Under the pieces are notes generated by a model. That model saw only the letters and a list, made by a program, of their open reading frames with translations. It was not told the DNA's origin and did not search any database. The position numbers were made by a program, and so were the translations under genes. A DNA stretch of 64,000 bases from Acidobacteriaceae bacterium (GTDB lineage Bacteria > Acidobacteriota > Terriglobia > Bryobacterales > Bryobacteraceae). The stretch lies in assembly GCA_019240405.1 (NCBI GenBank), contig JAFAYL010000013.1, positions 310,001 through 374,000 of the forward strand, given 5' to 3'. Below are positions 27,832 through 63,580 of this stretch, in pieces (the stretch's first letter is position 1; every line of letters starts with the position of its first letter).

Positions 27832-28095
27832 TCAGGCGAAATCCAGCTCAATCTGATCGACGTAACACCAGCCCCAATTCTCTTCTGGTTCAGCGGATCG
27901 CATGATCGGATGTTTCGTGGCGTGGAAGTGTTTGGTCGCGTGCTTGTTCTTGGATGAGTCGCAGCAGCCGACGTGCCCGCAAGTGAGGCATAGCCGGAGA
28001 TGGACCCAGCGGTCGCCAGTTTTCAGGCACTCTTCACAACCACGCGTGTGCGGTTGGACGTCTTGAATCTGATCTACGTGCGGGCACTGTCTCAT
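27832..28095 (-). CDS. UBP-type zinc finger protein
   Basis: 87 residues consisting almost only of a UBP-type zinc finger. Cys and His pairs sit in CPHVDQIQ, RGCEECL, HLRLCLTCGHVGCCD and KHFHATKHP. In eukaryotes this fold binds ubiquitin C-termini. Bacterial stand-alone versions often neighbour thioredoxin-reductase-like and kinase genes, and their ligand is not established. Its ATG overlaps the stop of the upstream kinase (ATGA at 28092-28095), so it is the last gene of the five-gene redox operon. Confidence 0.9.
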   Translation of the reverse strand: MRQCPHVDQIQDVQPHTRGCEECLKTGDRWVHLRLCLTCGHVGCCDSSKNKHATKHFHATKHPIMRSAEPEENWGWCYVDQIELDFA

Positions 28096-29531
28096 GTTTT
28101 CGCCTCCGCTGATTTTGCGAGTGGAATGCGCACCACGAATCGAGTCTCGCCGGGACGCGACTCAAAGCTGACATTACCGCGATGAGCGGTTGTGATCCGG
28201 TAAACGGCGTCCAATCCGAGCCCGGTGCCTTCGCCAATAGGCTTCGTCGTGAAGAACGGCTCGAAAATACGGCTTTGAATCTCCTGCGGAATCCCGGGAC
28301 CGTTGTCTTCTACCTCGACAACTGCCCAGTTTCCCTCGCGGGACGTGCGAATGCGGAGCTTACCTTTTCCCTTCATGGCTTCAGCCGCATTTGAAATCAG
28401 ATTGGTCCAGACTTGGTTCAGCTCACTGCCCCGCGCGCACACGGTTGGTAGGGCTCGGTCGTACTCCCGAACCACTTCGATGCCGTTTTTCAGTTGATGA
28501 CGCAGCATGAGCAATGTATTCTCCAGCCCGGAGTGGATATCGACCTCCTGTTCGGGCATCTGGTCCATGTAGGAGTATTCCTTCACGGCGCGGACGAGCT
28601 CGGAGATTTTTCCAACGCTGCTTTCGATTTGTTCGATTAAGCGCGTTATGGTGATGGAGGCGGTGACCCGCACGAAGGCATCAGCGAGAAATTCCGCCGG
28701 AATCTGATCGGCAACCTGCTCGAGAGTATTCCGATCACAACCTGCATCAACGAGCGAGGCGGCCAGATCCCAGGCGTTGGGAACATGATGGTCCTCTAGC
28801 CATATCGCAAACTCTTCCTCGCGCTCGCTGCGTTCCAGAGTATCGAGAGCGGATTGGGCGCCCACTTGTTTGATCCAATCGGTATCTAGCTGCGCAAGAA
28901 AGAGACGGGAGGAGAGAGGCAAGCCGCGTTTCTCTAGCTGGAGCGCAGCAGCGCGCACCGAGTTGAAGGCTTGGCGAAGATTATTCGCGGCGCGCCGGGC
29001 GGCGGACGCGGGATTATTCAGCTCATGCGCAAGGCCGGCCGATATCTTTCCCAGCGCCATTAATTTTTCACGCTGCTGATCGGCGGCAGCGGTTTCACGG
29101 ATGCGGTCCGCCAGAACACTGACAAGGCGTTGTTGCAGAACGGGAATGCGTTCCAGCATTTCCGCAAATTTGCTTTTGTGAAGCCGGGCCCCACGGCTCT
29201 CGACAATCGCAATGGCTGTGGAGGGATAGTGTGTGAGGCGCGAGTACGGAAGCAGCCCCGTCACCATTCCCGCGCGCATGATATAGACGCGGCCGTCTCC
29301 TCGCTCGGCGTGTACCTCGCCTCGAAACAGAACAACAAGATGCTCAGCGGGATCGCCGGCCCGAACCAGGATCTCGCCCGCTGGTATTTCGAAAACGACC
29401 ATCTCACTGGCAAGCCAGGCGAGCGCGTCAGGAGCAAGATCAGAAAAGATTGAGATCGCTTGTAGCTCACCCACATCCGGATTCTGGATGGTTTGCGCGA
29501 GCTTTTCTGAGTTAACCGTCGTAGTGCTCAT
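28092..29531 (-). CDS. Histidine kinase with N-terminal cyclic-nucleotide-binding-like domain
   Basis: 479 residues, no TM helix, so cytoplasmic. The cNMP-binding (Crp-like) sensor spans about residues 25-145 (LFRGEVHAERGD), followed by a helix. The dimerisation domain has GKISAGLAHELNNPA, phospho-acceptor His about 169. The ATPase has N box NLISNAAEAM, G1 DNGPGIP, F box FEPFFTTK and G2 GTGLGL. The HELNNPA signature is of the NtrB-like or 4-type kinases. It starts 1 base after the end of the response-regulator/flavoprotein gene, which is its obvious partner. Ligand unknown; the Crp-like pocket lacks the clear cAMP Arg-Ser signature by eye. Confidence 0.93.
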   Translation of the reverse strand: MSTTTVNSEKLAQTIQNPDVGELQAISIFSDLAPDALAWLASEMVVFEIPAGEILVRAGDPAEHLVVLFRGEVHAERGDGRVYIMRAGMVTGLLPYSRLTHYPSTAIAIVESRGARLHKSKFAEMLERIPVLQQRLVSVLADRIRETAAADQQREKLMALGKISAGLAHELNNPASAARRAANNLRQAFNSVRAAALQLEKRGLPLSSRLFLAQLDTDWIKQVGAQSALDTLERSEREEEFAIWLEDHHVPNAWDLAASLVDAGCDRNTLEQVADQIPAEFLADAFVRVTASITITRLIEQIESSVGKISELVRAVKEYSYMDQMPEQEVDIHSGLENTLLMLRHQLKNGIEVVREYDRALPTVCARGSELNQVWTNLISNAAEAMKGKGKLRIRTSREGNWAVVEVEDNGPGIPQEIQSRIFEPFFTTKPIGEGTGLGLDAVYRITTAHRGNVSFESRPGETRFVVRIPLAKSAEAKT

Positions 29532-29532
29532 A

Positions 29533-31203
29533 TCAGACCTTACTCAGGTATTGGTGAACGAATTGAATCGCTACAGATCCTTCGCCCACGCCCGAGGCCA
29601 CCCGTTTGATGGAACCGTGGCGGACATCGCCGACCGCGAAAATTCCGGGAATATTGGTTTCGAGAAGGCCCGGATCGCGCTCGAGCGACCAGCCTTTAGG
29701 ACGCTTGTTGTCGCGCATCAGATCGGGGCCGGTCAGGATAAATCCTCGGGGATCGCGCTCGATCACTCCGTCCAGCCATTCGGTCCGAGGCTCGGCTCCG
29801 ATGAAAATAAACAGCGCGCTCGCGGAAACGGTTTGTACGTCGCCGGTAGCGTCGCACGTAATTGAGATGGAGCGCAGGCGATCATCGCCATGCACTTCTG
29901 TTACGCGGCTCCGGTATTCGACTTGAATGTTTTCCGTTTTTTGAATTTGATCGATCAAGTACTGCGACATAGTAGCGGCGAGCGAGGGCCCTCGAACAAG
30001 CATCACAACGCGCTGCGCGTATTTAGAAAAAGACATCGCGGCTTGCCCGGCCGAGTTAGCACCTCCGACAACGTACACCTCTTCGTTGCGGCATGAGATC
30101 GCCTCGGTCGCAGCGGCACCGTAATAGACACCGGCTCCCTGTAGCCGCTCTATGCCGGGGATGTCGAGCGTTCTCCACTGGACGCCCGTCGCGAGCACCA
30201 ACGTGTGGCAGGAAACCTCTGTTCCGTCGCTGAGTTTGAGGAAGCGATACGACCCGTCGACGCGAATCGCGTTCGCTTGCTGGGGTGAAATAATCTCCAC
30301 TCCGAAACGCCGGGCCTGAGTGACGGCCCGCATCGCGAGGTCAGCACCCTTCAACCCGGCGGGGAAGCCGAGATAATTTTCGATATTAGAACTGAGTCCC
30401 GCTTGGCCTCCAGGCGCTTCCCGTTCAATCATCAGCGTCTTTAAACCTTCCGATGCTCCATAAACGGCGGCCGCCAGTCCGGCCGGGCCGCCTCCGACGA
30501 TTGCCACGTCATAAAACTCAAGACCTGCGCGCATACGGAGCCCGAGCTTGGCCGCGACATCTTGCCATTCGGGTTGCTCGAGGCGGTCTCCATCCGGAAA
30601 GAAAACCAGCGGAAGCTTCAATTCATTAGGGCCGAGACTTTCGACCAAACGGCTGACTTCAGCATCGCGCTGAGAAGCATCCGCGTCCAGCCACTGAAAC
30701 GGCACTTGGTTGCGAGCAAGAAAATCGCGCGTCTCGTAAGACTTTGACGACCAGCGGGTCCCAAGTACGCGAACCCCTTCGAACGGCGGTTTGTGTCTCG
30801 CAGACCATTCCGCGAGAAGATCATCCAGCACGGGATATAGCTGCTGCTCCGGCGGATCCCAGGGCTTCAGGAGATAGTGATGCAACTGGACGTCGTTGAT
30901 AGCCTTAATAGCCGCTTCGGTATCGGCATACGCTGTCAAAAGCACGCGCTTAGCTTCGGGATAAAGCTTCATCGCCTCGACAAGCGTCTCAATGCCATTC
31001 ATTTGCGGCATTCGGTGATCAACAAGCAGGAGCGCAACAGAGTCGTTTCGTTGTTGCAAGCGGCGCAACAGAGCGAGAGCGCTCATTCCGGAGTCAGCGC
31101 GCAAAATACGATAGTTTGCGTTATAGCGCTGTCGCAGATCGCGTTCTATCGCGTGCAGCACATCGAGATCATCGTCGATGGTTAAAATAACGGGTCTCGC
31201 CAC
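29533..31203 (-). CDS. Response regulator fused to glutaredoxin-like and thioredoxin-reductase-like domains, redox cysteines absent
   Basis: 556 residues. The receiver domain (1-130) has the acidic pair D10-D12, phospho-acceptor D62 in LLLVDHRMP, T90 and K113. A glutaredoxin-like domain (about 143-222) has SSKSYE where CxxC would be. The flavoprotein part (about 230-556) has FAD motif GGGPAG (237-242), GGQAGLSSNIENYLGFP and NAD(P)H motif VVGGANSAGQAA. The thioredoxin-reductase CxxC should sit just before that; here the residues are GAAA (362-365), so dithiol transfer is impossible. It can probably bind FAD and NADPH and may sense or respond by phosphorylation. The adjacent CNB-kinase is the likely phospho-donor. 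Annotated as TrxR-like, but not a thioredoxin reductase. Confidence 0.9.
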   Translation of the reverse strand: MARPVILTIDDDLDVLHAIERDLRQRYNANYRILRADSGMSALALLRRLQQRNDSVALLLVDHRMPQMNGIETLVEAMKLYPEAKRVLLTAYADTEAAIKAINDVQLHHYLLKPWDPPEQQLYPVLDDLLAEWSARHKPPFEGVRVLGTRWSSKSYETRDFLARNQVPFQWLDADASQRDAEVSRLVESLGPNELKLPLVFFPDGDRLEQPEWQDVAAKLGLRMRAGLEFYDVAIVGGGPAGLAAAVYGASEGLKTLMIEREAPGGQAGLSSNIENYLGFPAGLKGADLAMRAVTQARRFGVEIISPQQANAIRVDGSYRFLKLSDGTEVSCHTLVLATGVQWRTLDIPGIERLQGAGVYYGAAATEAISCRNEEVYVVGGANSAGQAAMSFSKYAQRVVMLVRGPSLAATMSQYLIDQIQKTENIQVEYRSRVTEVHGDDRLRSISITCDATGDVQTVSASALFIFIGAEPRTEWLDGVIERDPRGFILTGPDLMRDNKRPKGWSLERDPGLLETNIPGIFAVGDVRHGSIKRVASGVGEGSVAIQFVHQYLSKV

Positions 31204-31239: not shown

Positions 31240-31797
31240 TCAGCCCCGCCTCGTTTCATTGAACTGGGCGAGGAACGATTTTACATCCAGCTCACCGTCG
31301 TGGCGAATGCCGTTGATGAATAGGCCGGGCGTTCCGTACACTCCGTTCGCAACTCCGCGGCGAAAGTCCTCGCGGACACGGTCTTCATAAGTCCGGTGTT
31401 TCAGTTCGTCACGGAAGCGCTTCGTATCGAGCGATAGCTGGTCGGCATAGCGGTTTAGATCCTTCGTAGTGAGCGCGTTCTGATTGGCGAACAACAGATC
31501 GTGCATCTCCCAAAAACGACCCTGAGCGCCCGCGGCTTCGGCCGCTTCAGCCGCTTGTTGTGCGTGAGGATGAATCCCGGAACGCGGGTAATGACGAAAA
31601 ACCAGGCGAAGCTGGTCTCCTTGCTGAGCGCGCAGATCGTGAAGGGTTATGAACAAACGCCCGCAATCAGGGCACTCGTAATCGCCATACTCGACGAGCG
31701 TATAAAGTGCGTCCGGCGCTCCTTGCACGTGATCATCGGGTTGGACGGGCAGAAGCAGTTTCGATAAGTCCAGATCTTCTTTTGAAGGCGATGTCAC
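31240..31797 (-). CDS. DsbA-family thiol:disulfide protein
   Basis: 185 residues. The open frame reaches a TTG at 31872, but GTG at 31797 has GAGGAG about 9 bases upstream and gives MTSPSKEDLDLSK, so I prefer it. The fold is thioredoxin/DsbA: YTLVEYGDYECPDCGRLF gives active site C42-P-D-C45, followed by helical DsbA inserts (AAEAAGAQGRFWEMHD) and the cis-Pro region VYGTPGLFING. No signal peptide is visible, so it may act in the cytoplasm, unlike periplasmic DsbA. The upstream in-frame TTG overlaps the final stop of the VTT-rhodanese gene, which ties the two genes. Confidence 0.9.
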   Translation of the reverse strand: MTSPSKEDLDLSKLLLPVQPDDHVQGAPDALYTLVEYGDYECPDCGRLFITLHDLRAQQGDQLRLVFRHYPRSGIHPHAQQAAEAAEAAGAQGRFWEMHDLLFANQNALTTKDLNRYADQLSLDTKRFRDELKHRTYEDRVREDFRRGVANGVYGTPGLFINGIRHDGELDVKSFLAQFNETRRG

Positions 31798-31868: not shown

Positions 31869-32843
31869 TCAAGCACTGCGAGCAGCAATCATCTCACCCG
31901 CTGGTTCAATCGGAAACCCGAGGTCGCGCCAGGCCTCGAAGCCGCCCGCTAAGGGCCGAACCCGCTGAATTCCTGCTCTTTTCAGTTGGAGCGCCACCCG
32001 GGCGCTTGTGGCTTCATTTGGTCAGGTGCAATAAAGAATGATCTGCTGATTTTCCGGAATTTCATGGGACCGGGAGCGCAAGTCATCAGGCCGCAGAACG
32101 GTTGCGCCTGCGATTTTCATTCCCTCGCGCTCTATCTCGGCGGGGTGCCGCAGGTCGATGATTGTGACCCGTTCGCCGCTCTCGAGCAACACACGAGCTT
32201 GATCAGGCGTAATGCGATTGATTCGCAGTTTCCGTATGAAGCGTCTCCGCTGAACATATTTCGCTGCGACATAGAGACCGATCAGCGTCAGAACTATCAA
32301 ACCTGCTCTGCGGCCAAACAATCCAAGCAGCGAAACAAGTGCATCGACCTGACGATAGAAAATACGGCCCAGCAAGAGATAGGAGCCAGCCCAAAGGATG
32401 CAGCCCGCTGCATCTGCAAGTAAGAAGCGCCAGTATTGCAGTTTGGTTACGCCGGCCAGTGAGATGGAGACCAGCCCCATGCCCGGAACGAATTTGGCGA
32501 ACAGCAAAGCGCCAGCGCCACGCTTTGAAAACGCTGTTTCAGTTTTCCTTACACAGGTATCGGGTTCAAGCGAAACTTTGCATAATAGCGCCAGGACGGA
32601 GCGGCCTCGAAAACGGCCAAGCTCATACCAAAGAATGTCACCGACGAGCGAGGCAACAACCGCCGCGAACAAGGACGCAATAAAGGAATAGCGATGGTTT
32701 CCAACCATAGCTCCCATGAGCAGCAGGAGCGGATCGGCGGGAATTGGAAGGCCGATCGCCACGGCAAGCACGTACACGAAAAGAAACAAATAGCCGTGTT
32801 GTAGAAGAAGATCGCTAAATGAGAACAAATGCATGCGGCTCAC
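31869..32843 (-). CDS. DedA/VTT membrane protein fused to rhodanese, in-frame UGA at catalytic Cys position: candidate selenoprotein
   Basis: 324 residues if UGA is read. Residues 1-200 are a VTT/DedA membrane domain (GLPIPADPLLLLMGAM, GDILWYELGR, KFVPGMG). A rhodanese domain follows (about 205-324: TIIDLRHPAEIEREGM, QQIILYCT). The frame meets a single TGA at 32022-32024, residue 274. It then runs on unbroken with textbook rhodanese sequence (PNEATSARVALQLKRAGI, VRPLAGGFEAWRDLGFP) to TGA at 31869-31871. Cys homologues, as I recall them, read YC[ST]CPNEA, so UGA replaces the loop Cys aligned to the persulfide-forming residue. A SECIS-like hairpin follows. Conventional translation stops at residue 273 without an active site. 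Start is GTG 32843 or ATG 32834. First gene of the operon. Confidence 0.75.
31990..32006 (-). promoter_or_regulatory. Candidate bacterial SECIS hairpin
   Basis: On the minus strand a 17-nt hairpin, AGCGCC-CGGGT-GGCGCT, has a perfect 6-bp stem and a 5-nt loop with GGGU. It begins 16 nt after the UGA and the loop Gs lie 23-25 nt after it. Published bacterial SECIS rules ask for a small apical loop with a G in the first two positions about 16-37 nt from UGA. Size and placement resemble the upper stem-loop of E. coli fdhF (loop Gs about 19-20 nt after UGA, by my count). It lies within the rhodanese coding frame. Confidence 0.6.
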
Positions 32844-32876: not shown

Positions 32877-33009
32877 TTGATGACATCGCAAATTCGAAGG
32901 GCGCAAAGTATTTATTTCGTCGCCATCTCTCACCTACCCGAATGGGCAGGTCTGAATCATTCCGTTGTCGAAGAGCATCGGTCATGGTAATTACGCGGGA
33001 CCACCAGGA

Positions 33010-34317
33010 ATGAGCCTTTCAAGAGTCGTACAGTTCACAGAATTGATAGTTACGGTCGCGGTCGCATTCGGTTTGTCGGCTTGCGAATCCGCGTCCAAGG
33101 CTCAGAGCCATATGGCATTTCCTCCGCCACCTGTTTCGGTGATGGAAGTCCAGGCGCAAGATGTTCCTATTTACGGTCAGTACGCCGCGCAGACTTTCGC
33201 TCGCGACCTGGTTGAAGTACGCGGACGCGTCGACGGGTATATCGAAAAGCGGTTGTTTCAAGTCGGTGCGGATGTTCAGGCTGGTCAGACTCTTTACGTG
33301 CTCGACACGCGGCCCTATGCGGCGGACGTGGACAAAGCGAAAGCCGATCTCGCGCAGAGTGAAGCGAATCTCGAATTCGCGAAAAAGCAGGTTGCTCTAA
33401 TTCAGGCGGAAGCCAATCTGGCTCAAGCTAAAGCCAATTTTGTGAAGGCGCAGCAGGACGTCGACCGCTTGCAGCCGCTGGTGAGTCAGGAAGCGGCTGC
33501 GAAACAGGATCTCGATAATGCCCTAGCCGCCCTTGACGCGAATAAGGCGAACGTGGCGGCTTTGACGGCAAATGTCGAACAGACCCGGTTGCAAACCCGA
33601 ACTACGATCGATTCCGCCGCTGCCCAGGTTGCATCGAACAAGGCTCTCTTGCGCACCGCGGAATTGAATCTGGGTTATGCGACTATCACAGCGCCTATCG
33701 CGGGACGAATCGGTGACAGTCTGATCGAGGTCGGAGGTCTGGTCTCGAAAACGGCGCCGCAGCCGTTAACCACGATTGTTCCGCTCGATCCGATTTGGGT
33801 CCGCTTTAAAGTGAGCGAAGCAGAATATCTTGCATATCAAAAGTCGAAAGATGTTCGGAACAGCGTAGCTCTGCCGATTCATCTGATTTTGGCCGACGAC
33901 TCTGTTTTTCCGCACGAGGGACAGATTCGAAACGCAGTAAACCAGGTCGATCTTAAGACTGGAACACTTGAGATTCAGGGCACGTTTCCGAATCCGGAAC
34001 ATACAATTCTCCCCGGCCAGTTTGGTCGCGTCCGGCTCCGCATGCGCGAAGCGAAGAACGTCATTATCGTCCCGCAGCGGGCCGTTCAGGAACTGCAGAG
34101 CATGCAATCCGTTTTCACGGTGGGTCCTGATAATAAAGCCCAACTGCGCAATATCGTTACTGCAGACCGGGTGGGTGACGGTTGGATCGTAACGCAAGGC
34201 CTGAAGCCGGGCGACAAAGTGATCGTGGAAGGCGTGCAGAAGGTGCGGCCCGGCGCGCCTGTTCAGCCGGCGCCCTACAAAGCGCATAACAGCGCCACGC
34301 GACCGGTGCAGGGCTGA
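33010..34317 (+). CDS. RND efflux periplasmic adaptor (HlyD/AcrA type) lipoprotein
   Basis: 435 residues. I use the ATG at 33010, which gives a lipoprotein signal with lipobox LSAC, rather than the frame opening at 32965. Domains: beta-barrel and lipoyl halves (VEVRGRVDGYIEKRLFQVGADVQAGQTLYVLD), a long alpha-hairpin (about 100-190), lipoyl return (LNLGYATITAPIAGRIGDS), beta barrel and membrane-proximal domain (GDKVIVEGVQKVRPGAPV). It connects the inner-membrane pump with the outer-membrane channel; both are encoded next. Substrate unknown. Confidence 0.95.
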   Translation: MSLSRVVQFTELIVTVAVAFGLSACESASKAQSHMAFPPPPVSVMEVQAQDVPIYGQYAAQTFARDLVEVRGRVDGYIEKRLFQVGADVQAGQTLYVLDTRPYAADVDKAKADLAQSEANLEFAKKQVALIQAEANLAQAKANFVKAQQDVDRLQPLVSQEAAAKQDLDNALAALDANKANVAALTANVEQTRLQTRTTIDSAAAQVASNKALLRTAELNLGYATITAPIAGRIGDSLIEVGGLVSKTAPQPLTTIVPLDPIWVRFKVSEAEYLAYQKSKDVRNSVALPIHLILADDSVFPHEGQIRNAVNQVDLKTGTLEIQGTFPNPEHTILPGQFGRVRLRMREAKNVIIVPQRAVQELQSMQSVFTVGPDNKAQLRNIVTADRVGDGWIVTQGLKPGDKVIVEGVQKVRPGAPVQPAPYKAHNSATRPVQG

Positions 34318-34335
34318 GCGTTAGTGGGCTAGTCC

Positions 34336-37300
34336 ATGGCACGTTTCTTTATCGATAGGCCCGTATTCGCGATCGTGATTGCGATCGTAATCGTCATCCT
34401 CGGCTGTGTTGTTATTCCGACGCTGCCCATCGCGACTTACCCGGAAGTAGTGCCGCCTGTCGTGCAAATTACAGCGGTCTACCAAGGCGGCAACGCGACC
34501 GACCTCGAGAAGACAGTCTCCCAGCCAATCGAGCAGCAGCTCACAGGGCTCGACGGGATGCTCTACTACTTCGCGCGCGCTTCGAATAACGGCACGCTCA
34601 CGATTGATGTCACGTTCGAGCTTGGAACCGATCCCGATCTGGCTACGGTCAAAGTTCAAAACAAAGTGAGCGTGGCCCTGCCGCTGCTACCGCCCGAAGT
34701 GCAGCACGTCGGCGTGACTACGAAGAAAGTCTCTTCTTCGTTCCTGCTGTTTGTGGCCTTAACGGCTCCGGATAATCGCTACGACACGCTGTTTTTGAAC
34801 AATTACGCCGCCATCAATCTTGTCGACAAAATTGGAAGCTTGCCGGGCGTCGGCAATTCTGTATTGGCCGGAGCGCAGAACTACAGCATGCGTGTGTGGG
34901 TCAATCCGGACAAGATGGCGAAACTGGGGCTCACGGCTACAGACATTAATAACGCAATTCAGGCGCAAAACAGGCAGAATCCGGCGGGCGCTCTTGGGCA
35001 GCCGCCTGCGCCCAAGGGTGTCGACTATCAATATCCGGTGAATGCATCGGGCCGCTTGGTGACATCTCAGGAGTTTGGTGACATCATCATCCGGGCACAA
35101 CCCGACGGCTCCTTGCTGCGCGTGCGCGACATCGGCGAGGTACAACTCGGGGCGCAGGACTATTCGAACTTCACTTACTGGAACCGGCGCGAGGCGGCGT
35201 TCATCATTGTGTATCTCGCGCCCGGAGCGAATGCCGTGGAAACGCAGCGGCAAGTCGTGAAATTTATGCAGCAGGCCCGGCAATCATTTCCGGCGGGGCT
35301 CGAATACAAGATCCCTTACGATTCGACGCGTTTCGTGACGCGATCTATCGCCGAAGTTATTCAGACGTTATTTGTCGCCGTACTGCTCGTAATTCTGGTT
35401 GTGTTCATTTTTCTTCAGAACTGGCGCGCGACTCTCATTCCGTTACTCACGGTTCCGGTAGCCGTGATTGGAACGTTTGCTTTATTTCCTGCGCTGCATT
35501 TCTCGGTCAACACTACCAGCCTGTTCGGTCTCGTGCTCGCTATCGGAATCGTTGTTGACGACGCCATCGTGGTGGTGGAAGCAGTCCAGCTCAATATCGA
35601 TCGCGGTATGAGTCCGCGCGACGCGACCATCAAAGCTCTGGAGGAGGTTTCCGGGCCAGTTGTGGCCATCGCTTGCATCCTGGCGGCGGTTTTCATTCCG
35701 GTCGCTTTTCTCGGTGGCATCAGCGGACAAATTTACAGGCAATTCGCGCTCACCATCGCAGCGTCTGTGTTGCTGTCTGCGTTTAATGCACTCTCTTTGA
35801 GTCCCGCGCTGAGCGCTATGATCTTGAAGCCGAAAAGCGAGTCCAAGGGCGTACTTGCGCGCTTGTTCGGCAAGTTCAATCAAGGTTTTGATTGGACCAC
35901 CAACCGATACTTATTCGGTGTTCGCGGTCTGATTCGGAAAACTGTGTTCGCGCTGGTAGGCCTAGGAGTGGTGTATGTCTGCGCGGGAACGCTGTTCAAG
36001 ATCTTGCCGGGCGGGTTCCTTCCCGACGAAGATCAAGGCGTGTTCGTCTCCTCGGTTCGTTTGCCCGATGGTGCCTCCATCGAGCGAAACGAGACGACCA
36101 GTAAACAGGTCCAAGAGGTCCTGCTTACGACGCCGGGGGTTCAGGACGTTTCCGTAGTGGGCGGTCTCGATCTTCCGACCGCGACCAACAATTCAAACGT
36201 GAGCACCGTCTTCGCCACCCTCAAACCATGGGATGAGCGAAAAGCGAAAAACATGCAATTCGAAAGCATCCTCGGATCCGTGCAGCAAAGGTATTACGGA
36301 ATTAAGGACGGTTTTATTTTTGCGTTCGGTCTTCCGCCGATTTTGGGTCTCGGAACTTCGAACGGTTTTGAGTTCATGCTGGAGGATCGCGCGGCCGGCG
36401 ACGTGGAGGCGCTAGCGCAGGCTGCCGACCAGCTCGTTGCCGAAGCTCGCAGCAGACCTGAATTACAGAATGTGGTCAGCACGTTCCGCGACACAGTGCC
36501 GCAGTACAAGATCAACGTAGATCGTGACAAGGTTCAAACGATGGGTGTTCCGATCACGGATGTTTACGATGCGCTTCAGACGTTCTTGGGCGGCCTGTAC
36601 GTGAACGACTTCAATCGTTTTGGTCGCACCTGGCGCGTCTACCTGCAGGCTGAACCAGAGTTTCGCCGCCAACCGGCCGACATAAATCGGTTCTATGTGA
36701 GGACCGGGCAAGGCGATATGGTTCCGCTGAGCACGTTGGCGAGAACGGAGGCCACGCTCGGCCCGGAAGTGATTTATCGTTACAACCGCTACCGTGCGGT
36801 GAAGATTCTCGGAAGCGCCGCACCGGGTTACAGCTCAGGGCAAGCCGCCGCCGTTATGGAAGAGCTTGCAAAACAACTCCCGAACGGCTTCGGCTATGAG
36901 TGGACCGGCACCGTCTATCAGCAGAGACTCTCCGAAGGCAAGGAAGGCTACACCTTCGGCCTCGCTTCGGTCCTGGTCTTCCTCTTTCTCGCCGCTCTCT
37001 ACGAAAGTTGGTCCACGCCATTCTCAGTTATTTTCGCTGTGCCTCTGGGCATCTTTGGCGCACTGCTGGGTATTTTTCTGCGCAGTTATGCCTACGACGT
37101 CTACACGCAAATCGGCATTGTCACGTTGATCGGATTGGCGGCGAAGAATGCGATTCTGATCGTTGAATTCGCAAAGTTCCGGCAGGAGGAGGGCAGGTCG
37201 ATAGAAGACGCTGCCGTGGAGGCGGCGCACCTGCGGCTCCGCCCCATTCTCATGACTTCGTTTGCGTTCATCCTCGGCGTGACGCCGCTTGTCATCGCAA

Positions 37301-37491
37301 CTGGGGCAGGGGCAGGCGCTCGGCGAGCCCTCGGAACCACCGTGTTGAGCGGAATGTTGGCAGCTACGCTGCTGGCCGTATTTATTGTTCCCGTCCTTTA
37401 CGTTGTTGTGAATCGAATTGCTTCACGACGCCGCGCACCGGCGGAGGCGCCCGCGGGCGTAGAACCAGTTGCAGCAGGAGGAGGCGACTGA
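34336..37491 (+). CDS. RND multidrug efflux permease (AcrB/HAE1 family)
   Basis: 1051 residues, the standard size, with twelve TM helices and two large periplasmic loops. It opens MARFFIDRPVFAIVIAI, typical for AcrB. It has the porter motif VTTKKVSSSFLLF and the proton-relay Asp pair in TM4 (VVDDAIVVVEAV). The second-half RND signatures TLIGLAAKNAILIVEFA and LRLRPILMTSFAFILGV (about 960-1000) are intact. Proton-driven export of hydrophobic compounds as a trimer with the adaptor and outer-membrane factor. Middle gene of the three-gene operon. Confidence 0.97.
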   Translation: MARFFIDRPVFAIVIAIVIVILGCVVIPTLPIATYPEVVPPVVQITAVYQGGNATDLEKTVSQPIEQQLTGLDGMLYYFARASNNGTLTIDVTFELGTDPDLATVKVQNKVSVALPLLPPEVQHVGVTTKKVSSSFLLFVALTAPDNRYDTLFLNNYAAINLVDKIGSLPGVGNSVLAGAQNYSMRVWVNPDKMAKLGLTATDINNAIQAQNRQNPAGALGQPPAPKGVDYQYPVNASGRLVTSQEFGDIIIRAQPDGSLLRVRDIGEVQLGAQDYSNFTYWNRREAAFIIVYLAPGANAVETQRQVVKFMQQARQSFPAGLEYKIPYDSTRFVTRSIAEVIQTLFVAVLLVILVVFIFLQNWRATLIPLLTVPVAVIGTFALFPALHFSVNTTSLFGLVLAIGIVVDDAIVVVEAVQLNIDRGMSPRDATIKALEEVSGPVVAIACILAAVFIPVAFLGGISGQIYRQFALTIAASVLLSAFNALSLSPALSAMILKPKSESKGVLARLFGKFNQGFDWTTNRYLFGVRGLIRKTVFALVGLGVVYVCAGTLFKILPGGFLPDEDQGVFVSSVRLPDGASIERNETTSKQVQEVLLTTPGVQDVSVVGGLDLPTATNNSNVSTVFATLKPWDERKAKNMQFESILGSVQQRYYGIKDGFIFAFGLPPILGLGTSNGFEFMLEDRAAGDVEALAQAADQLVAEARSRPELQNVVSTFRDTVPQYKINVDRDKVQTMGVPITDVYDALQTFLGGLYVNDFNRFGRTWRVYLQAEPEFRRQPADINRFYVRTGQGDMVPLSTLARTEATLGPEVIYRYNRYRAVKILGSAAPGYSSGQAAAVMEELAKQLPNGFGYEWTGTVYQQRLSEGKEGYTFGLASVLVFLFLAALYESWSTPFSVIFAVPLGIFGALLGIFLRSYAYDVYTQIGIVTLIGLAAKNAILIVEFAKFRQEEGRSIEDAAVEAAHLRLRPILMTSFAFILGVTPLVIATGAGAGARRALGTTVLSGMLAATLLAVFIVPVLYVVVNRIASRRRAPAEAPAGVEPVAAGGGD

Positions 37492-37492
37492 C

Positions 37493-38905
37493 ATGCGCTC
37501 GGCGATAATTCCTGCAATTCTTTGCCTGACTCTGACAGGCTGCGCGATTGGACCGAATTACAAACGTCCCCTGGTCGACACGCCCGCGCAATACCGCCAG
37601 CCGCAACCGGTCACGGCGGCCCCTGACAAGGCCGCGCTTTCCGATATCGCCTGGGCGAGCCTGTTCCAGGACGAAGTTGTCACCGGGCTCGTCAAAACGG
37701 CGCTAGCGCAGAGTCACGATCTTGAAGCGGCCACGCAGCGCGTCCTCGAAGCTCGCGCTCAACTCGGAGTGACGCGGTCGCAGCTTGCGCCGCAATTGAC
37801 TGCTTCTGGCTCCTTCACAGCCGCTCGCACCTCGAGCATCGGGTCCTTCAATTTCATCCCTGCGGGAACCAATCTCGCCGCAAGCTATACGCAGGCGGGA
37901 CTCAATGTCTCATGGGAGCTAGACGTTTGGGGCCGTATTCGCCGGTTGACAGAATCGGCGCGGGCTCAGTACCTAGCCCAGGAAGAGGCCCGGCACGCAG
38001 TAATTTCGAGTCTCATCGCCGACGTGATTACCACATATCTGACGATGCGCGAGCTCGATCTGGAACTTGAGATTGCCCGGAAGACAAAGGAAATCGCGGA
38101 GAACGGCCTGAAGCTTACAAATCTTCGGAAAGAGCGCGGCGTTTCCACCGGCCTGGATGTTCGTCAAGCGGAGCAATTGCTTTATACGGCTACGGCTCAG
38201 ATCGCCGCAACGGAACGCGCTATTGCGGAAACAGAAAACTCGCTCAATGTTCTGCTGGGCAAAAATCCCGGCGAAGTCCCTCGCGGCAAATCTCTACTCG
38301 AACTGACCGGACCTTCGGCAGTTCCGGCCGGTCTTCCTTCGGATCTGCTCGAACGGCGGCCCGATATACGGCAAGCAGAACAAGGTTTAATAGCGGCAAA
38401 TGCGCAGATCGGCGCAGCGAAGGCATTGTTTTTTCCGCAAATCTCTCTGACGAGCGTGCTTGGCGTGCAGAGCCGCGCGCTCGGTGATTTGTTTACCGGT
38501 CCTGCGCGCAATCAAAGCATTGCGCCTGCCGGAGTCCTGCCTCTCTTCAACGCGGGTCAGCTTCGCAACAATCTCCGATTAACTGAGGCGCAGCAGCGGG
38601 AGGCTGTCGCGGATTATCGTAAAACGATTCAGGTGGCATTCCAGGAGGTCTCGAGCGCGCTTGCCGATTATCAAAAAAGCCGTGAGCAGCGTTCCCAGGA
38701 GGAGCTCCTGGTAAAAGCACTTCAGGATACGGACCGCCTTTCGACGCTTCGTTACAAGGGAGGCCTTGACAGCTATCTTCAAGTCTTGGACGCGGAACGA
38801 AATGAATTCTCAGGAGAGCTGACACTTGCTCAACTTCGGAAAAACGAGCTGCTTTCGATCGTGCAGCTCTATCGCGCGCTCGGCGGCGGTTGGCAGAATC
38901 CATAG
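37493..38905 (+). CDS. Outer-membrane efflux channel (NodT/OprM family) lipoprotein
   Basis: 470 residues from the ATG at 37493, which has AGGAGGAGG upstream and begins MRSAIIPAILCLTLTGCAIGPNYKRP. This is a lipobox followed by the NodT family start. Two repeats of the TolC-like outer-membrane efflux protein domain follow, with long helices (EARAQLGVTRSQLAPQL; ERRPDIRQAEQGLIAANAQIGAAKALFFPQISL). The start is 1 base after the permease stop, so translation is coupled. Completes the tripartite pump. Confidence 0.96.
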   Translation: MRSAIIPAILCLTLTGCAIGPNYKRPLVDTPAQYRQPQPVTAAPDKAALSDIAWASLFQDEVVTGLVKTALAQSHDLEAATQRVLEARAQLGVTRSQLAPQLTASGSFTAARTSSIGSFNFIPAGTNLAASYTQAGLNVSWELDVWGRIRRLTESARAQYLAQEEARHAVISSLIADVITTYLTMRELDLELEIARKTKEIAENGLKLTNLRKERGVSTGLDVRQAEQLLYTATAQIAATERAIAETENSLNVLLGKNPGEVPRGKSLLELTGPSAVPAGLPSDLLERRPDIRQAEQGLIAANAQIGAAKALFFPQISLTSVLGVQSRALGDLFTGPARNQSIAPAGVLPLFNAGQLRNNLRLTEAQQREAVADYRKTIQVAFQEVSSALADYQKSREQRSQEELLVKALQDTDRLSTLRYKGGLDSYLQVLDAERNEFSGELTLAQLRKNELLSIVQLYRALGGGWQNP

Positions 38906-59882: not shown

Positions 59883-60144
59883 TTCAGGCTAGATAAAGAT
59901 AGTGCGAAAACGCTTACAACGATAGCAGAATTTCGGAGTATTGTTTGTTAAGAATCTTTCCACAAGCTGCGGGTATCGCTCGTGTCTACGCATATTCTCG
60001 CGCGCCACGGCCTGCAAAAACTGGCATATACTGTAACCCAAGCGTACAGCGGGGATTGGGGCTGAAGAAAATCTAGACACTCGTGGGCTCACGAGCGTGC
60101 GACAATCTGCGGCATTTCGGCTGCAGACGCAGAAGGAGGCTCAC
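59883..60144. other. Divergent intergenic region upstream of glgP and the tandem secreted genes
   Basis: 262 bases between glgP and the first tandem gene. It contains a TATACT at 60027-60032 on the plus strand without a good -35, and a hairpin CTCGTG-GGCT-CACGAG at 60080-60095 in the leader of the tandem gene. The ribosome site AGAAGGAGG precedes the ATG at 60145. Confidence 0.5.
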
Positions 60145-61849
60145 ATGAAATCGAGAGTTTGGATCGCCACACTCTGCCTTTTGGCAGGGTTTACGCTTCA
60201 CGCTCAAACCACGGTCACGACCACCGGCGGGACGGCCAATACGGTCGCCAAATACTCCGGCTCATCGACCATCGTCAATTCACTGCTGTTTGATAACGGC
60301 TCGAGCGTGGCGCTCGGCACCACGAGCCCTACAGCTACGTTCCAGATCGCGAACCCGGAAACAGCTTCCAAACCCGGGCTGCTGCTGAGCGGTTCGTGGT
60401 TCACGGGCGGCACCGCGAGCACGAATCTGCCGGAATTGCTGATTCAGCCGGCGGGAACGACGTCGAACTACTGGTCAACGAGCGGCACGGCGCTGGGCAT
60501 CAACGCTTCAACCGGATTCAAAGGCTACTTCATTGTTACGCAGCTAAATGGGGTCCCTCAGTTCAATGTCACGAGCACGGGCGGAGTGAGTGCGAACTAT
60601 ATCGCAAATCCTGTCTCGCTGAACTACGTCGAGCTGGCGATGGGCACGACCGGCGCGGTCATGAGCCGCAATATCGCGGACTCGCATCCCGCTCTGATTG
60701 TGAATCAGCAGAATGCCGGCTCCACCGGGCGACATTCTCGATCTGAAGAACAACTCGTCTACGGTTATGGTGGTGCAGCATGGCGGCAATGTGGGCATCG
60801 GCACCACTTCGCCATCCTCGCTGCTGACCGTAGCGGGTTCGATTCAATCGACCAGCGGCGGGTTCACATTTCCTGATAGCTCTGTCCAGACCACGGCTGC
60901 GGTGAGCGGTCTCAGTTCGGTAAGCCATGACGGCACGCTCACCCGGGCCGGAACGGGCGCATCGCCGCTCGGGATTGCCGTTCCTCTGACACTCACAAGT
61001 AACGTAGTGACCCTGACCGTCGCCAGCGGGGGTGACGGAGATGACGCCCTCACGGCTCAGGGCGGCTATAGCGGCCCCGGAATTCTGGCATCCGGCGGCA
61101 ACACCGACGGCACATATAGCGGCGGCTTCGGCGGCCAATTTTCCGGCGGGATTGGGAGCGACTCCACCTTTGGCGGGTCGGGCGCTCAAGCGCAGGGTGG
61201 CAACGGATATGACGGCGGCGATGGCATTGAGGCCTACGGCGGAACCGCCCTCGTAACCAGTGGTGGCTATGGCATTTATGCCCGAGGTGGCCAAAACTTC
61301 GCGGTTGGAACGAATGCCCCGGCCGGCTATTTCGATGGCGACGTGTACGTCGCCGGAAATCTGTCTAAAGGCGGAGGTTCGTTCAAGATTGACCATCCGC
61401 TCGATCCGGCGAATAAGTATCTGTACCACTCGTTCGTCGAGTCGCCGGACATGAAGAATATTTACGACGGGAACGTCATCACCGATGGAAGCGGTTTGGC
61501 GATCGTAACGCTCCCGGACTGGTTCGAAGCGCTCAATCGCGACTTCCGTTACCAGCTGACCACAGTTGGCCAACCCGCTCAGGCTTGGATCGCCTCCAAG
61601 ATCGCCGGAAATCAGTTCACCATCCGAACCGATAAGCCGAATGTCGAAGTCTCGTGGCAGGTGACCGGCATACGGCAGGACGCGTGGGCCAATGCGCACC
61701 GCATCCCGGTCGAAGAAGAGAAATCCGAGAAGGACCGCGGCTATTACTTACATCCGGAACTGTACAATGAGCCGCCCGAGCGCTCCGTGCTCTCAGCGGA
61801 GCGCCCGGATCTGATGCGCAAGCGTCAGGAGCGGCGCAATCCACGATAG
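60145..61849 (+). pseudogene. Secreted glycine-rich repeat protein, copy A, one-base frameshift
   Basis: The frame opens with a signal peptide (MKSRVWIATLCLLAGFTLHA) and shares all conserved blocks with copy B: VAKYSGSSTIVNSLLFDNGSS, GTTSPTATF and HGGNVGIGTTSPSSLL. Near 60721-60730 it has TCCACCGGGCGAC where copy B has TCGACGGGCGAC, one extra base. This shifts the frame until the overlapping ORF from 60713 takes over. The span is 1705 bases against 1704 in copy B, exactly one insertion. The C-terminal about 170 residues (GSFKIDHPLDPANKYLYHSFVESPDM, given by motif) are intact. It is a frameshifted gene, or possibly a sequencing error. Confidence 0.85.
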
Positions 61850-61876
61850 CGTTTCCACTGGCAGAAAGGAGCTCAC

Positions 61877-63580
61877 ATGAAATCGAAAATTTGGATCGCC
61901 ACACTCTGCCTTTTGGCAGGGTTTACGGTTCACGCTCAAACCACGGTCACGACCACCGGCGGGACGGCCAATATCGTCGCCAAATACTCCGGCTCATCGA
62001 CCATCGTCAATTCACTGCTGTTTGATAACGGCTCGAGCGTGGCGCTCGGCACCACTAGTCCCACGGCTACGTTTCACATCGCCACGCCGGAAACAGCTTC
62101 GAAACCCGGTCTGTTGTTGAGCGGTTCGTGGTTTACTGGCGGCACCGCGAGCACGAATCTGCCGGAGTTGCTGATTCAGCCCGCAGGTGCCACATCCAAC
62201 AACTGGTCCTCGAGCGGCACGGCGCTGGGCATTAACGCTTCAAGCACATTCAAGGGGTACTTCATTGTTACGCAGCTAAACGGAGCGAACAGGTTCTATG
62301 TCTCCAGTGGCGGCGGAGTGGGCGCGAACTATATTGCAAATCCTGTCTCGCTGAACTACGTCGAACTGGCGATGGGCACGACCGGCGCGGTCATGAGCCG
62401 CAATATCGCGGACTCGCATCCCGCTCTGATCGTGCAGCAGCAAAATGCCAGCTCGACGGGCGACATTCTAGATTTGAAGAGCAGCTCGTCAACGCTGCTG
62501 GTTGTGCAGCATGGGGGTAACGTCGGCATCGGCACGACTTCGCCGTCGTCGCTGCTGACGGTAGCCGGTTCGATCCGCTCGACCAGCGGCGGCTTCACAT
62601 TTCCCGATAACACGGTGCAGACCACGGCAGCGGTGAGCGGTCTGAGTGCGGTAAGCCACGACGGCACTCTCACCGGGGCCGGAACGGGCGCATCCCCGTT
62701 GGGCATTAATGTTCCGCTGTCGCTCACAAGCAGTTTCACGACTCTGAGCGTCGCCAGCACGGGCGCCGGATATTACGGCGCCGCGGTTTCCGGAGGCCCC
62801 AGCGCTATCGGGATTTGGGCAGCAGGCGGCGCCACCGACGGGACAGGCGAACCCGGACCTGGGACGTACTTTTTGGGAGGACAAGGAAACGCATCGATAG
62901 GCGGAGCTAGCGGTGCTCAGGGACAGGGCGGCACCGGATCTATCGGCGGGGATGGCGTCGATGGTTTTGGTGGCAGTGGCATCTCGGACCAAGGTGGCTA
63001 TGGCATTTATGGCGCTGGCGGTCAAAATGCCGATGGATCCTGCTGCTATTTTGCCGGCTATTTCGATGGCGACGTCTACGTAAACGGCAATGTAGACAAG
63101 AGCGGCGGTTCATTCAAAATCGACCATCCGCTCGATCCGGCAAATAAGTATCTCTATCACTCGTTTGTCGAATCGCCGGACATGAAGAATATTTACGACG
63201 GTAACGTGATCACCGATGGAAGCGGCTTCGCAACCGTAACGCTCCCCGAATGGTTTGAGGTGCTGAATCGCGATTTCCGTTATCAGCTTACGGTGATCGG
63301 ACAGTTCGCGCAAGCCATAATCGCCAAAGAAATCGACAACCACCAATTCACAATCAGGACGGACAAGCCGAACGTCAAAGTCTCCTGGCAAGTAACCGGC
63401 ATCCGGCAGGACGCCTGGGCCAATGCGCACCGCATTCCGGTCGAAGAAGAGAAATCGGAGAGAGCCCGCGGGCACTACTTGCATCCAGAGCTCTATAACG
63501 AGCCGCCCGAGCGATCCGAGCTTTACGCTGAGCGCCCCGATCTGATGCGCAAGCTTGCGGAACGGCGCAAGCCGCGGTAG
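61877..63580 (+). CDS. Secreted glycine-rich repeat protein, copy B
   Basis: 567 residues with a signal peptide (cleavage after HAQ). Then come fibre- or head-domain-like repeats (NSLLFDNGSSVALGTTSPTATF, GNVGIGTTSPSSLLTVAGS) like those at the start of phage-tail-like and adhesin proteins. A Gly/Ala-rich variable centre (about 310-400) precedes a conserved C-terminal domain of about 170 residues with IDHPLDPANKYL, FVESPDMKNIYDGN and WQVTGIRQDAWANAHRIPVEEEK. It looks like an exported surface or matrix protein. The exact family is unknown to me. Start ATG 61877 with AAAGGAG 6 bases upstream. Confidence 0.8.
   Translation: MKSKIWIATLCLLAGFTVHAQTTVTTTGGTANIVAKYSGSSTIVNSLLFDNGSSVALGTTSPTATFHIATPETASKPGLLLSGSWFTGGTASTNLPELLIQPAGATSNNWSSSGTALGINASSTFKGYFIVTQLNGANRFYVSSGGGVGANYIANPVSLNYVELAMGTTGAVMSRNIADSHPALIVQQQNASSTGDILDLKSSSSTLLVVQHGGNVGIGTTSPSSLLTVAGSIRSTSGGFTFPDNTVQTTAAVSGLSAVSHDGTLTGAGTGASPLGINVPLSLTSSFTTLSVASTGAGYYGAAVSGGPSAIGIWAAGGATDGTGEPGPGTYFLGGQGNASIGGASGAQGQGGTGSIGGDGVDGFGGSGISDQGGYGIYGAGGQNADGSCCYFAGYFDGDVYVNGNVDKSGGSFKIDHPLDPANKYLYHSFVESPDMKNIYDGNVITDGSGFATVTLPEWFEVLNRDFRYQLTVIGQFAQAIIAKEIDNHQFTIRTDKPNVKVSWQVTGIRQDAWANAHRIPVEEEKSERARGHYLHPELYNEPPERSELYAERPDLMRKLAERRKPR

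Follow-up and report, generated by a model that had tools for sequence, protein, structure and literature searches.

A VTT(DedA)–rhodanese gene of an acidobacterium with a UGA codon very probably read as selenocysteine

The window, as the whole analysed stretch of 64,000 nucleotides is called here, carries on its minus strand a gene for a VTT(DedA)–rhodanese protein (31869..32843) in which an internal TGA codon (32022..32024) very probably encodes selenocysteine (Sec274). This reading, already put forward in the initial annotation, is supported: the genome encodes the selenocysteine machinery, position 274 is occupied by Cys or UGA in homologues, constraint behind the codon shows no relaxation, and the UGA comes with a SECIS-like hairpin. 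Judged from the aligned sequences, UGA 274 is a sense codon that is interchangeable with Cys. The hairpin, with its loop 21 nt downstream of the codon, would recruit SelB and Sec-tRNA(UCA); selenocysteine would be inserted at codon 274, and the frame would then continue to the TGA at 31869. The predicted product is a DedA/VTT membrane protein whose C-terminal rhodanese-like domain probably lies in the cytoplasm.

Reading frame and the VTT membrane domain

The minus-strand frame 31869-32843 comprises 325 codons, that is, 324 codons from GTG 32843 and the stop TGA at 31869-31871 (codon 325), as defined by translation, Pfam matches and the homologue alignment, while the alignment of relatives makes ATG 32834 (residue 4) the more likely start over GTG 32843. 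Translation bears out the initial annotation in that the frame has one in-frame TGA, at codon 274, with no other stop before codon 325, and in that the motifs PNEATSARVAL and VRPLAGGFEAW are present in frame. With codon 274 written as Cys, Pfam places a VTT/DedA membrane domain at residues 34-160 (32364..32744, minus strand; PF09335, VTT_dom, 54.3 bits against a gathering threshold of 33.9), where the AlphaFold2 model has helices, and a rhodanese domain at residues 212-306 (31926..32210, minus strand; PF00581, 42.8 bits against a threshold of 22.2), which matches solved rhodaneses in Foldseek and whose Pfam match spans the TGA. The open tail alone proves nothing and was not used as evidence, because the window holds 28 sites where a stop ends a run of 150 or more open codons and is followed by 45 or more further ones (the selenoprotein gene counted among them; 11 of these stops are TGA). 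What goes beyond chance, as the homologues indicate, is that TGA is kept at exactly codon 274 and that the domain continues behind it.

The VTT domain contains Cys88 and Cys97 (C-x8-C; 32553..32582, minus strand) in a turn flanked by the two AlphaFold2 helices 54-90 and 94-114, and both are invariant in the 138/138 covering rows with TGA or Cys at codon 274. It is doubtful that undecaprenyl-phosphate flipping of the COG0586 DedA type is the main activity of the protein, with the rhodanese tail only regulating it. The VTT part does resemble NCBIfam UptA models, below their cut-off, and the COG0586 DedA proteins, rhodanese fusions among them, have been proposed to be flippases (PMC10127716). However, the two arginines called essential in E. 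coli YghB, R130 and R136 (PMC10127716), are both absent, which makes plain undecaprenyl-phosphate flipping less likely: the R130 equivalent is Lys (K117) in 146/146 covering rows, and the R136 equivalent (residue 123) is basic in none of the 146, being Ser in 58, Asn in 39, Gly in 32, Asp in 9, Ala in 6, Thr in 1 and Gln in 1.

Codon 274 in homologues and the constraint behind it

A six-frame search of 150 related genomes, together with named genome contigs and further stretches, gave 168 homologous loci, of which 149, the window included, are distinct and all cover codon 274. Among the six-frame matches listed, site-covering ones down to about E 1e-39 were used, and the weaker ones left out are mostly VTT-only or rhodanese-only; from the scan of named contigs, the best 80 of 586 matches were used. 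Four of the loci used are partial (L041, L109, L110 and L111). Since the contig scan was queried with one peptide pattern carrying Cys at the site, any bias would be toward Cys. Among the matches listed, codon 274 is TGA in 101 of the 149 distinct loci, a Cys codon in 40 (TGC in 27 and TGT in 13), a Ser codon in 7 and Gly (GGC) in 1, and neither TAA nor TAG was found in any of them, which agrees with the expectation that homologues have Cys or UGA at this position.

The TGA loci, 55 of which come from the 150 genomes and 46 from named records only, belong mostly to Acidobacteriota, with some from Methylomirabilota, Rokubacteria and others. By title, four of the records are Methylomirabilota/NC10 (L123, L134, L155 and L169), five Rokubacteria (L136, L138, L158, L159 and L179), two Deltaproteobacteria (L151 and L163) and one Nitrospiraceae (L162); as most relatives are metagenome bins, some of these taxon assignments may be wrong. 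One gammaproteobacterial record (L170, Nevskia soli BOG_genome_mining.15) carries a TGA gene that is placed within an acidobacterial clade, and its contig is probably misbinned.

When codon 274 is masked and three short rows are removed, the resulting tree of 146 rows requires no fewer than 19 Sec/Cys changes, and its well supported branches force the Sec label to change 8 times or more. Six of the 8 rows without Cys or Sec at residue 274 form one clade on this tree. The VTT–rhodanese proteins of this clade (L094, L099, L100, L103, L107 and L108) have Ser at residue 274, and in 4/6 of them C272 is also replaced by Ser, so that the rhodanese site looks dead; 5/6 of these genomes also carry the Sec form.

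Relaxed constraint behind the codon had been named as a point against selenocysteine, and the constraint is not relaxed. In 12 close relatives, the median dN/dS is 0.116 over the 39 codons after the TGA (57/66 pairs usable) versus 0.163 over the 39 codons before it (32/66 pairs), with 0.251 further upstream (42/66 pairs); because dS is saturated (medians above 1.4), these values are taken only to mean that constraint is not relaxed. Outside the hairpin, at codons 12-39 after the TGA, the median of 0.157 (23/66 pairs usable) is about equal to that before the TGA.

In addition to encoding selenocysteine, the UGA might act as a selenium-dependent switch, with the full VTT–rhodanese protein made when selenium is available and a truncated but functional VTT-only protein made without it. 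Such a role would fit a VTT domain that is complete before the UGA and a family in which 93% of the COG0586 DedA proteins consist of the DedA domain only (PMC10127716), but the 40 of 149 loci with Cys make the long form only, and we regard the switch as quite improbable.

Selenocysteine machinery and the SECIS-like hairpin

The source genome was found to carry every component searched for, namely selA (508 bits), selB (363 bits), selD (349 bits) and selC, a tRNA-Sec with a UCA anticodon. A formate dehydrogenase alpha subunit gene in the same genome (G000:C47:3051-3803, L205) also has an in-frame TGA at the usual Sec site, in the context VENQARI-U-HSSTV, and is probably a second selenoprotein gene.

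The selB cut-off is passed by 126 of the 150 genomes and the selA cut-off by 130. Co-occurrence was counted at E <= 1e-60 for selB, E <= 1e-50 for selA and E 1e-10 for tRNA-Sec. Among the 55 genomes with a TGA copy, 44 have both selA and selB, 10 have one and a single genome has neither (G056, 85% complete), in which tRNA-Sec is present; at least one machinery gene is found in each of the 55. One of the TGA genomes (G092, 64% complete) has selA and gave no match for selB or tRNA-Sec. Sixteen genomes have Cys and no TGA copy, with both selA and selB in 11, one of them in 1 and neither in 4; these last four (G117, G132, G138 and G144, 99-100% complete) gave no match for selA, selB or tRNA-Sec, and they use TGC. 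Neither selA nor selB is seen in 7 of the 77 genomes that have no scored site. Since most Cys genomes keep the machinery, loss of the machinery goes with Cys and not the reverse.

These data also bear on the question of whether UGA, as a sense codon, might specify another residue, such as Cys or Ser delivered by a differently charged tRNA-Sec. Cys is indeed an accepted alternative at the site (40/149 loci), but the full set of selA, selB, selD and tRNA-Sec (UCA), the second TGA gene at the usual formate dehydrogenase site, and the use of TGC in the four Cys-only genomes that lack selA, selB and tRNA-Sec make this highly improbable.

Behind the UGA, a bacterial SECIS-like hairpin is predicted at 31990..32006 (minus strand) from fold and conservation. 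The published bSECIS model has a loop of 3-9 nt with G in the first two loop bases, an upper stem of 4-16 bp, a UGA-to-loop distance of 16-37 nt and an MFE of at most -7.5 kcal/mol (PMC13188914), and the window hairpin falls within these limits, with a 5-nt loop (CGGGU, which starts CG), a 6-bp stem, a distance of 21 nt and -9.9 kcal/mol over 40 nt. Compared with shuffled sequences, the window's hairpin shows no excess stability (z -0.43; another fold z 0.47), and a 55-nt fold of the window prefers a competing GCCAC/GUGGC stem. The single-sequence fold is therefore uninformative, and the case for the hairpin rests on comparison.

For the comparison, the stem was defined as bases 19-23 paired with bases 29-33 (the U of UGA being 0) around a 5-nt loop. 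All five pairs are intact in 99/101 TGA genes, in 7/40 Cys genes and in 0/8 others; the two exceptions among the TGA genes (L057 and L162) have lost only the lowest pair, and a G stands in the first two loop bases of 101/101 TGA genes. Of 8 independent Sec/Cys contrasts, an average of 6.7 have the hairpin on the TGA side and an average of 0.0 show the reverse (200 random pairings; median sign-test p 0.016). The wobble positions of the stem codons are nearly fixed in TGA genes, where Ala+7 is GCC in 98/98, Val+9 is GTG in 66/66 and Ala+10 is GCG in 97/98, while the same codons are used in 47%, 56% and 53% of Cys genes, respectively. With RNAalifold, the TGA set yields the stem (-8.7) and the Cys set yields nothing. 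Moreover, when synonymous codons directly behind the site were randomised, TGA genes had a mean z of -1.03 (se 0.08) and Cys genes one of -0.31 (se 0.15); in the upstream controls, values for TGA genes were near 0 and those for Cys genes ranged from +0.12 to -0.39. A compensatory change from G-C to A-U keeps one pair in L095, L101 and L104; covariation in the stem is thin, consisting of this one double change, and most pairs are invariant. Across the homologues, the putative SECIS-like hairpin persists in genes that use UGA and has mostly disappeared from the others.

That the TGA is an ordinary stop, a sequencing error or the mark of a decaying gene, which would leave a 273-residue VTT protein with a broken rhodanese and a dead tail, is next to impossible: standard translation does end the ORF at this TGA and the window has 28 comparable open extensions, but the homologue codon counts (TGA in 101/149 loci, no TAA or TAG) and the purifying selection behind the TGA rule it out, and the hairpin is tied to the TGA.

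Active site, relatives and possible function

The initial annotation had placed the selenocysteine at the catalytic Cys of the rhodanese. After L-Y, the loop of the window protein reads LYCTU, that is, a C-x-U motif whose first member, Cys272 (32028..32030, minus strand), is invariant in 141/141 TGA and Cys rows and is kept in 4/8 rows without Cys or Sec at 274. The AlphaFold2 model (Sec written as Cys, 36 sequences; mean pLDDT 83.4, pTM 0.72) matches solved rhodaneses in Foldseek with probability 1.00, and the 50 matches listed, of 369, are rhodanese-type or unnamed small proteins by title and aligned length. Strand-anchored alignments, which need a gap of two residues, bring C272 onto the catalytic Cys of 3tp9, 5ve3, 6pfz and E. 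coli GlpE, while helix-anchored ones bring residue 274 there with no gap (6mxv, both domains, and 3iwh). In five solved rhodaneses the catalytic Cys lies 17 residues from the helix Gly, and in the window protein this Gly lies 19 residues from C272 and 17 from residue 274; no gap occurs in residues 272-291 in 149/149 rows. The active-site loop of rhodaneses has six residues, and the turn in the model is shorter, with three residues between strand 267-271 and helix 275-289. Under either alignment reading, the predicted active site is the C272-x-Sec274 pair; the pair itself stands, and the placement on the catalytic Cys is split between its two members.

As the most likely chemistry, with chances slightly below even, we tentatively propose that the C-x-U pair acts in a redox mechanism together with partners of the thioredoxin type. 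In this putative reaction, C272 or Sec274 would take sulfur from a persulfide or perselenide, or a disulfide, the other residue would attack, and the reduced product would leave; a Cys–Sec selenenyl-sulfide would remain and be re-reduced by thioredoxin-type partners, for which the adjacent DsbA-like and thioredoxin-reductase-like proteins are candidates where they are present. The VTT pair C88/C97 may pass on electrons or the oxidation state. A wider scheme, which we consider unlikely, is a membrane chalcogen relay, in which the VTT domain would move or bind a species of sulfur or selenium, such as a persulfide or selenium compound, while C88/C97 with C272-x-Sec274 would reduce or transfer it at the cytoplasmic face. 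This relay is suggested because the four thiol/selenol positions C88, C97, C272 and 274 are kept together in 138/138 covering TGA and Cys rows, and because C97 is lost in 3/8 rows without Cys or Sec at 274 (six of these 8 being one clade).

Downstream of the selenoprotein gene, all on the minus strand, lie genes for a DsbA-like thioredoxin-fold protein (31240..31797; ECPDC; Pfam PF13462/PF01323; likely start GTG 31797), a response regulator receiver fused to a thioredoxin-reductase-like FAD oxidoreductase (29533..31203; Pfam; TIGR01292 225.5 bits, below cut-off), a cNMP-binding-domain histidine kinase (28092..29531; Pfam) and a UBP-type zinc-finger protein (27832..28095; Pfam PF02148). Only part of the genus bears out the claim that the gene heads a redox signalling operon. 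Fourteen loci with longer flanks were compared, namely the window, 11 of 14 other same-genus genomes with at least part of the gene, G024 and G083. The DsbA-like gene adjoins in 6/14 of them (G000, G001, G003, G006, G012 and G013; in G008 the contig end is too near), and the response regulator–reductase gene follows in 3/14 (G000, G001 and G003). The latter gene precedes the selenoprotein homologue in G016, a Cys genome, and a similar gene, 41% identical, lies nearby on the opposite strand in G013. None of six tested neighbour genes was found at 77/93 loci (duplicates included, flank lengths varied), so the partnership is plausible and not general. In an all-versus-all clustering of neighbours, the largest cluster is the antisense frame of the selenoprotein gene itself, the second spans 50 loci, and the remaining clusters reach at most 18/149 loci. 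An operon conserved throughout is rejected; only part of the genus keeps it. On its other side, the gene adjoins a divergent RND efflux operon (32965-38905; adaptor, pump and outer membrane factor). Elsewhere, the window has a tandem pair of similar secreted repeat-rich proteins (60097-63580), the first as two overlapping ORFs (60097-60876 and 60713-61849) and the second as one (61877-63580).

Selenocysteine-containing rhodanese-like proteins of other bacteria, invoked in the initial annotation, are indeed tabulated as stand-alone proteins (PMC13188914, PMC9312934). The closest is NF041203 (rhodanese_LYCAU), given in a 2026 review as "Rhodanese-like domain-containing protein form 3", a stand-alone CxU selenoprotein (PMC13188914). 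It shares the rhodanese-like domain and C-x-U with the window protein, is its best NCBIfam match, and is matched by 36/36 aligned family members at E <= 1e-10. However, NF041203 is a single-domain model of 126 positions, while the window protein adds a VTT domain with an invariant Cys pair and reaches 81.6 bits where the cut-off is 115. The window protein stays below the cut-off of every NCBIfam model. A DedA protein was reportedly linked to selenite resistance by Ledgham et al. in 2005, which would connect the family with selenium, although by its title that work concerns resistance and not a selenoprotein. Among the rhodanese-only matches, five of about 90-120 residues have one in-frame TGA (G157:C38:15089-15385, G140:C8:18436-18750, G122:C41:6614-6964, G004:C673:2781-3098 and G047:C17:61906-62172) and are possibly the stand-alone NF041203 selenoprotein.

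DedA–rhodanese fusions are also known: they exist in COG0586 (PMC10127716), and PA1209 of P. aeruginosa has DedA followed by rhodanese (PMC12893004). These fusions share both domains with the window protein, and the domain order is stated for PA1209; selenocysteine is not mentioned for them in the accessible parts of the two papers, whereas the window gene has a putative loop Sec and a SECIS-like hairpin. TsoB (NF045694, rhodanese/DsbD fusion-like) is a rhodanese selenoprotein tied by name to a membrane redox protein, but it has UxxxxU with two Sec (PMC13188914), and at E <= 0.01 the window protein does not match NF045694. The selenoprotein of the YeeE/YedE thiosulfate transporter family likewise has Sec in a sulfur-related membrane transporter family, yet it differs in Pfam family (PF04143) and motif (GUxSG; PMC13188914). 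In addition, deep-Sep is reported to have recovered three known selenoprotein genes, and none that were new, in one acidobacterium (PMC12013277). A Sec DedA/VTT–rhodanese was not found in the accessible portions of the open-access literature searched, so the claim of novelty stands for the fusion and not for the CxU rhodanese, which is already listed (PMC13188914); the gene represents a new architecture for an already known kind of selenoprotein.

The membrane selenoprotein architecture described here, found at 101 distinct loci, is cut short by standard translation, so that its active domain can readily escape notice. It also links selenium with the DedA family, in which the relation between rhodanese tails and function has been called unclear (PMC10127716). 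The 19 or more switches on a single tree, together with a hairpin that goes with UGA, make the family a natural Sec/Cys experiment on why selenium is kept, and close relatives of the gene occur in many soil and groundwater bacteria.
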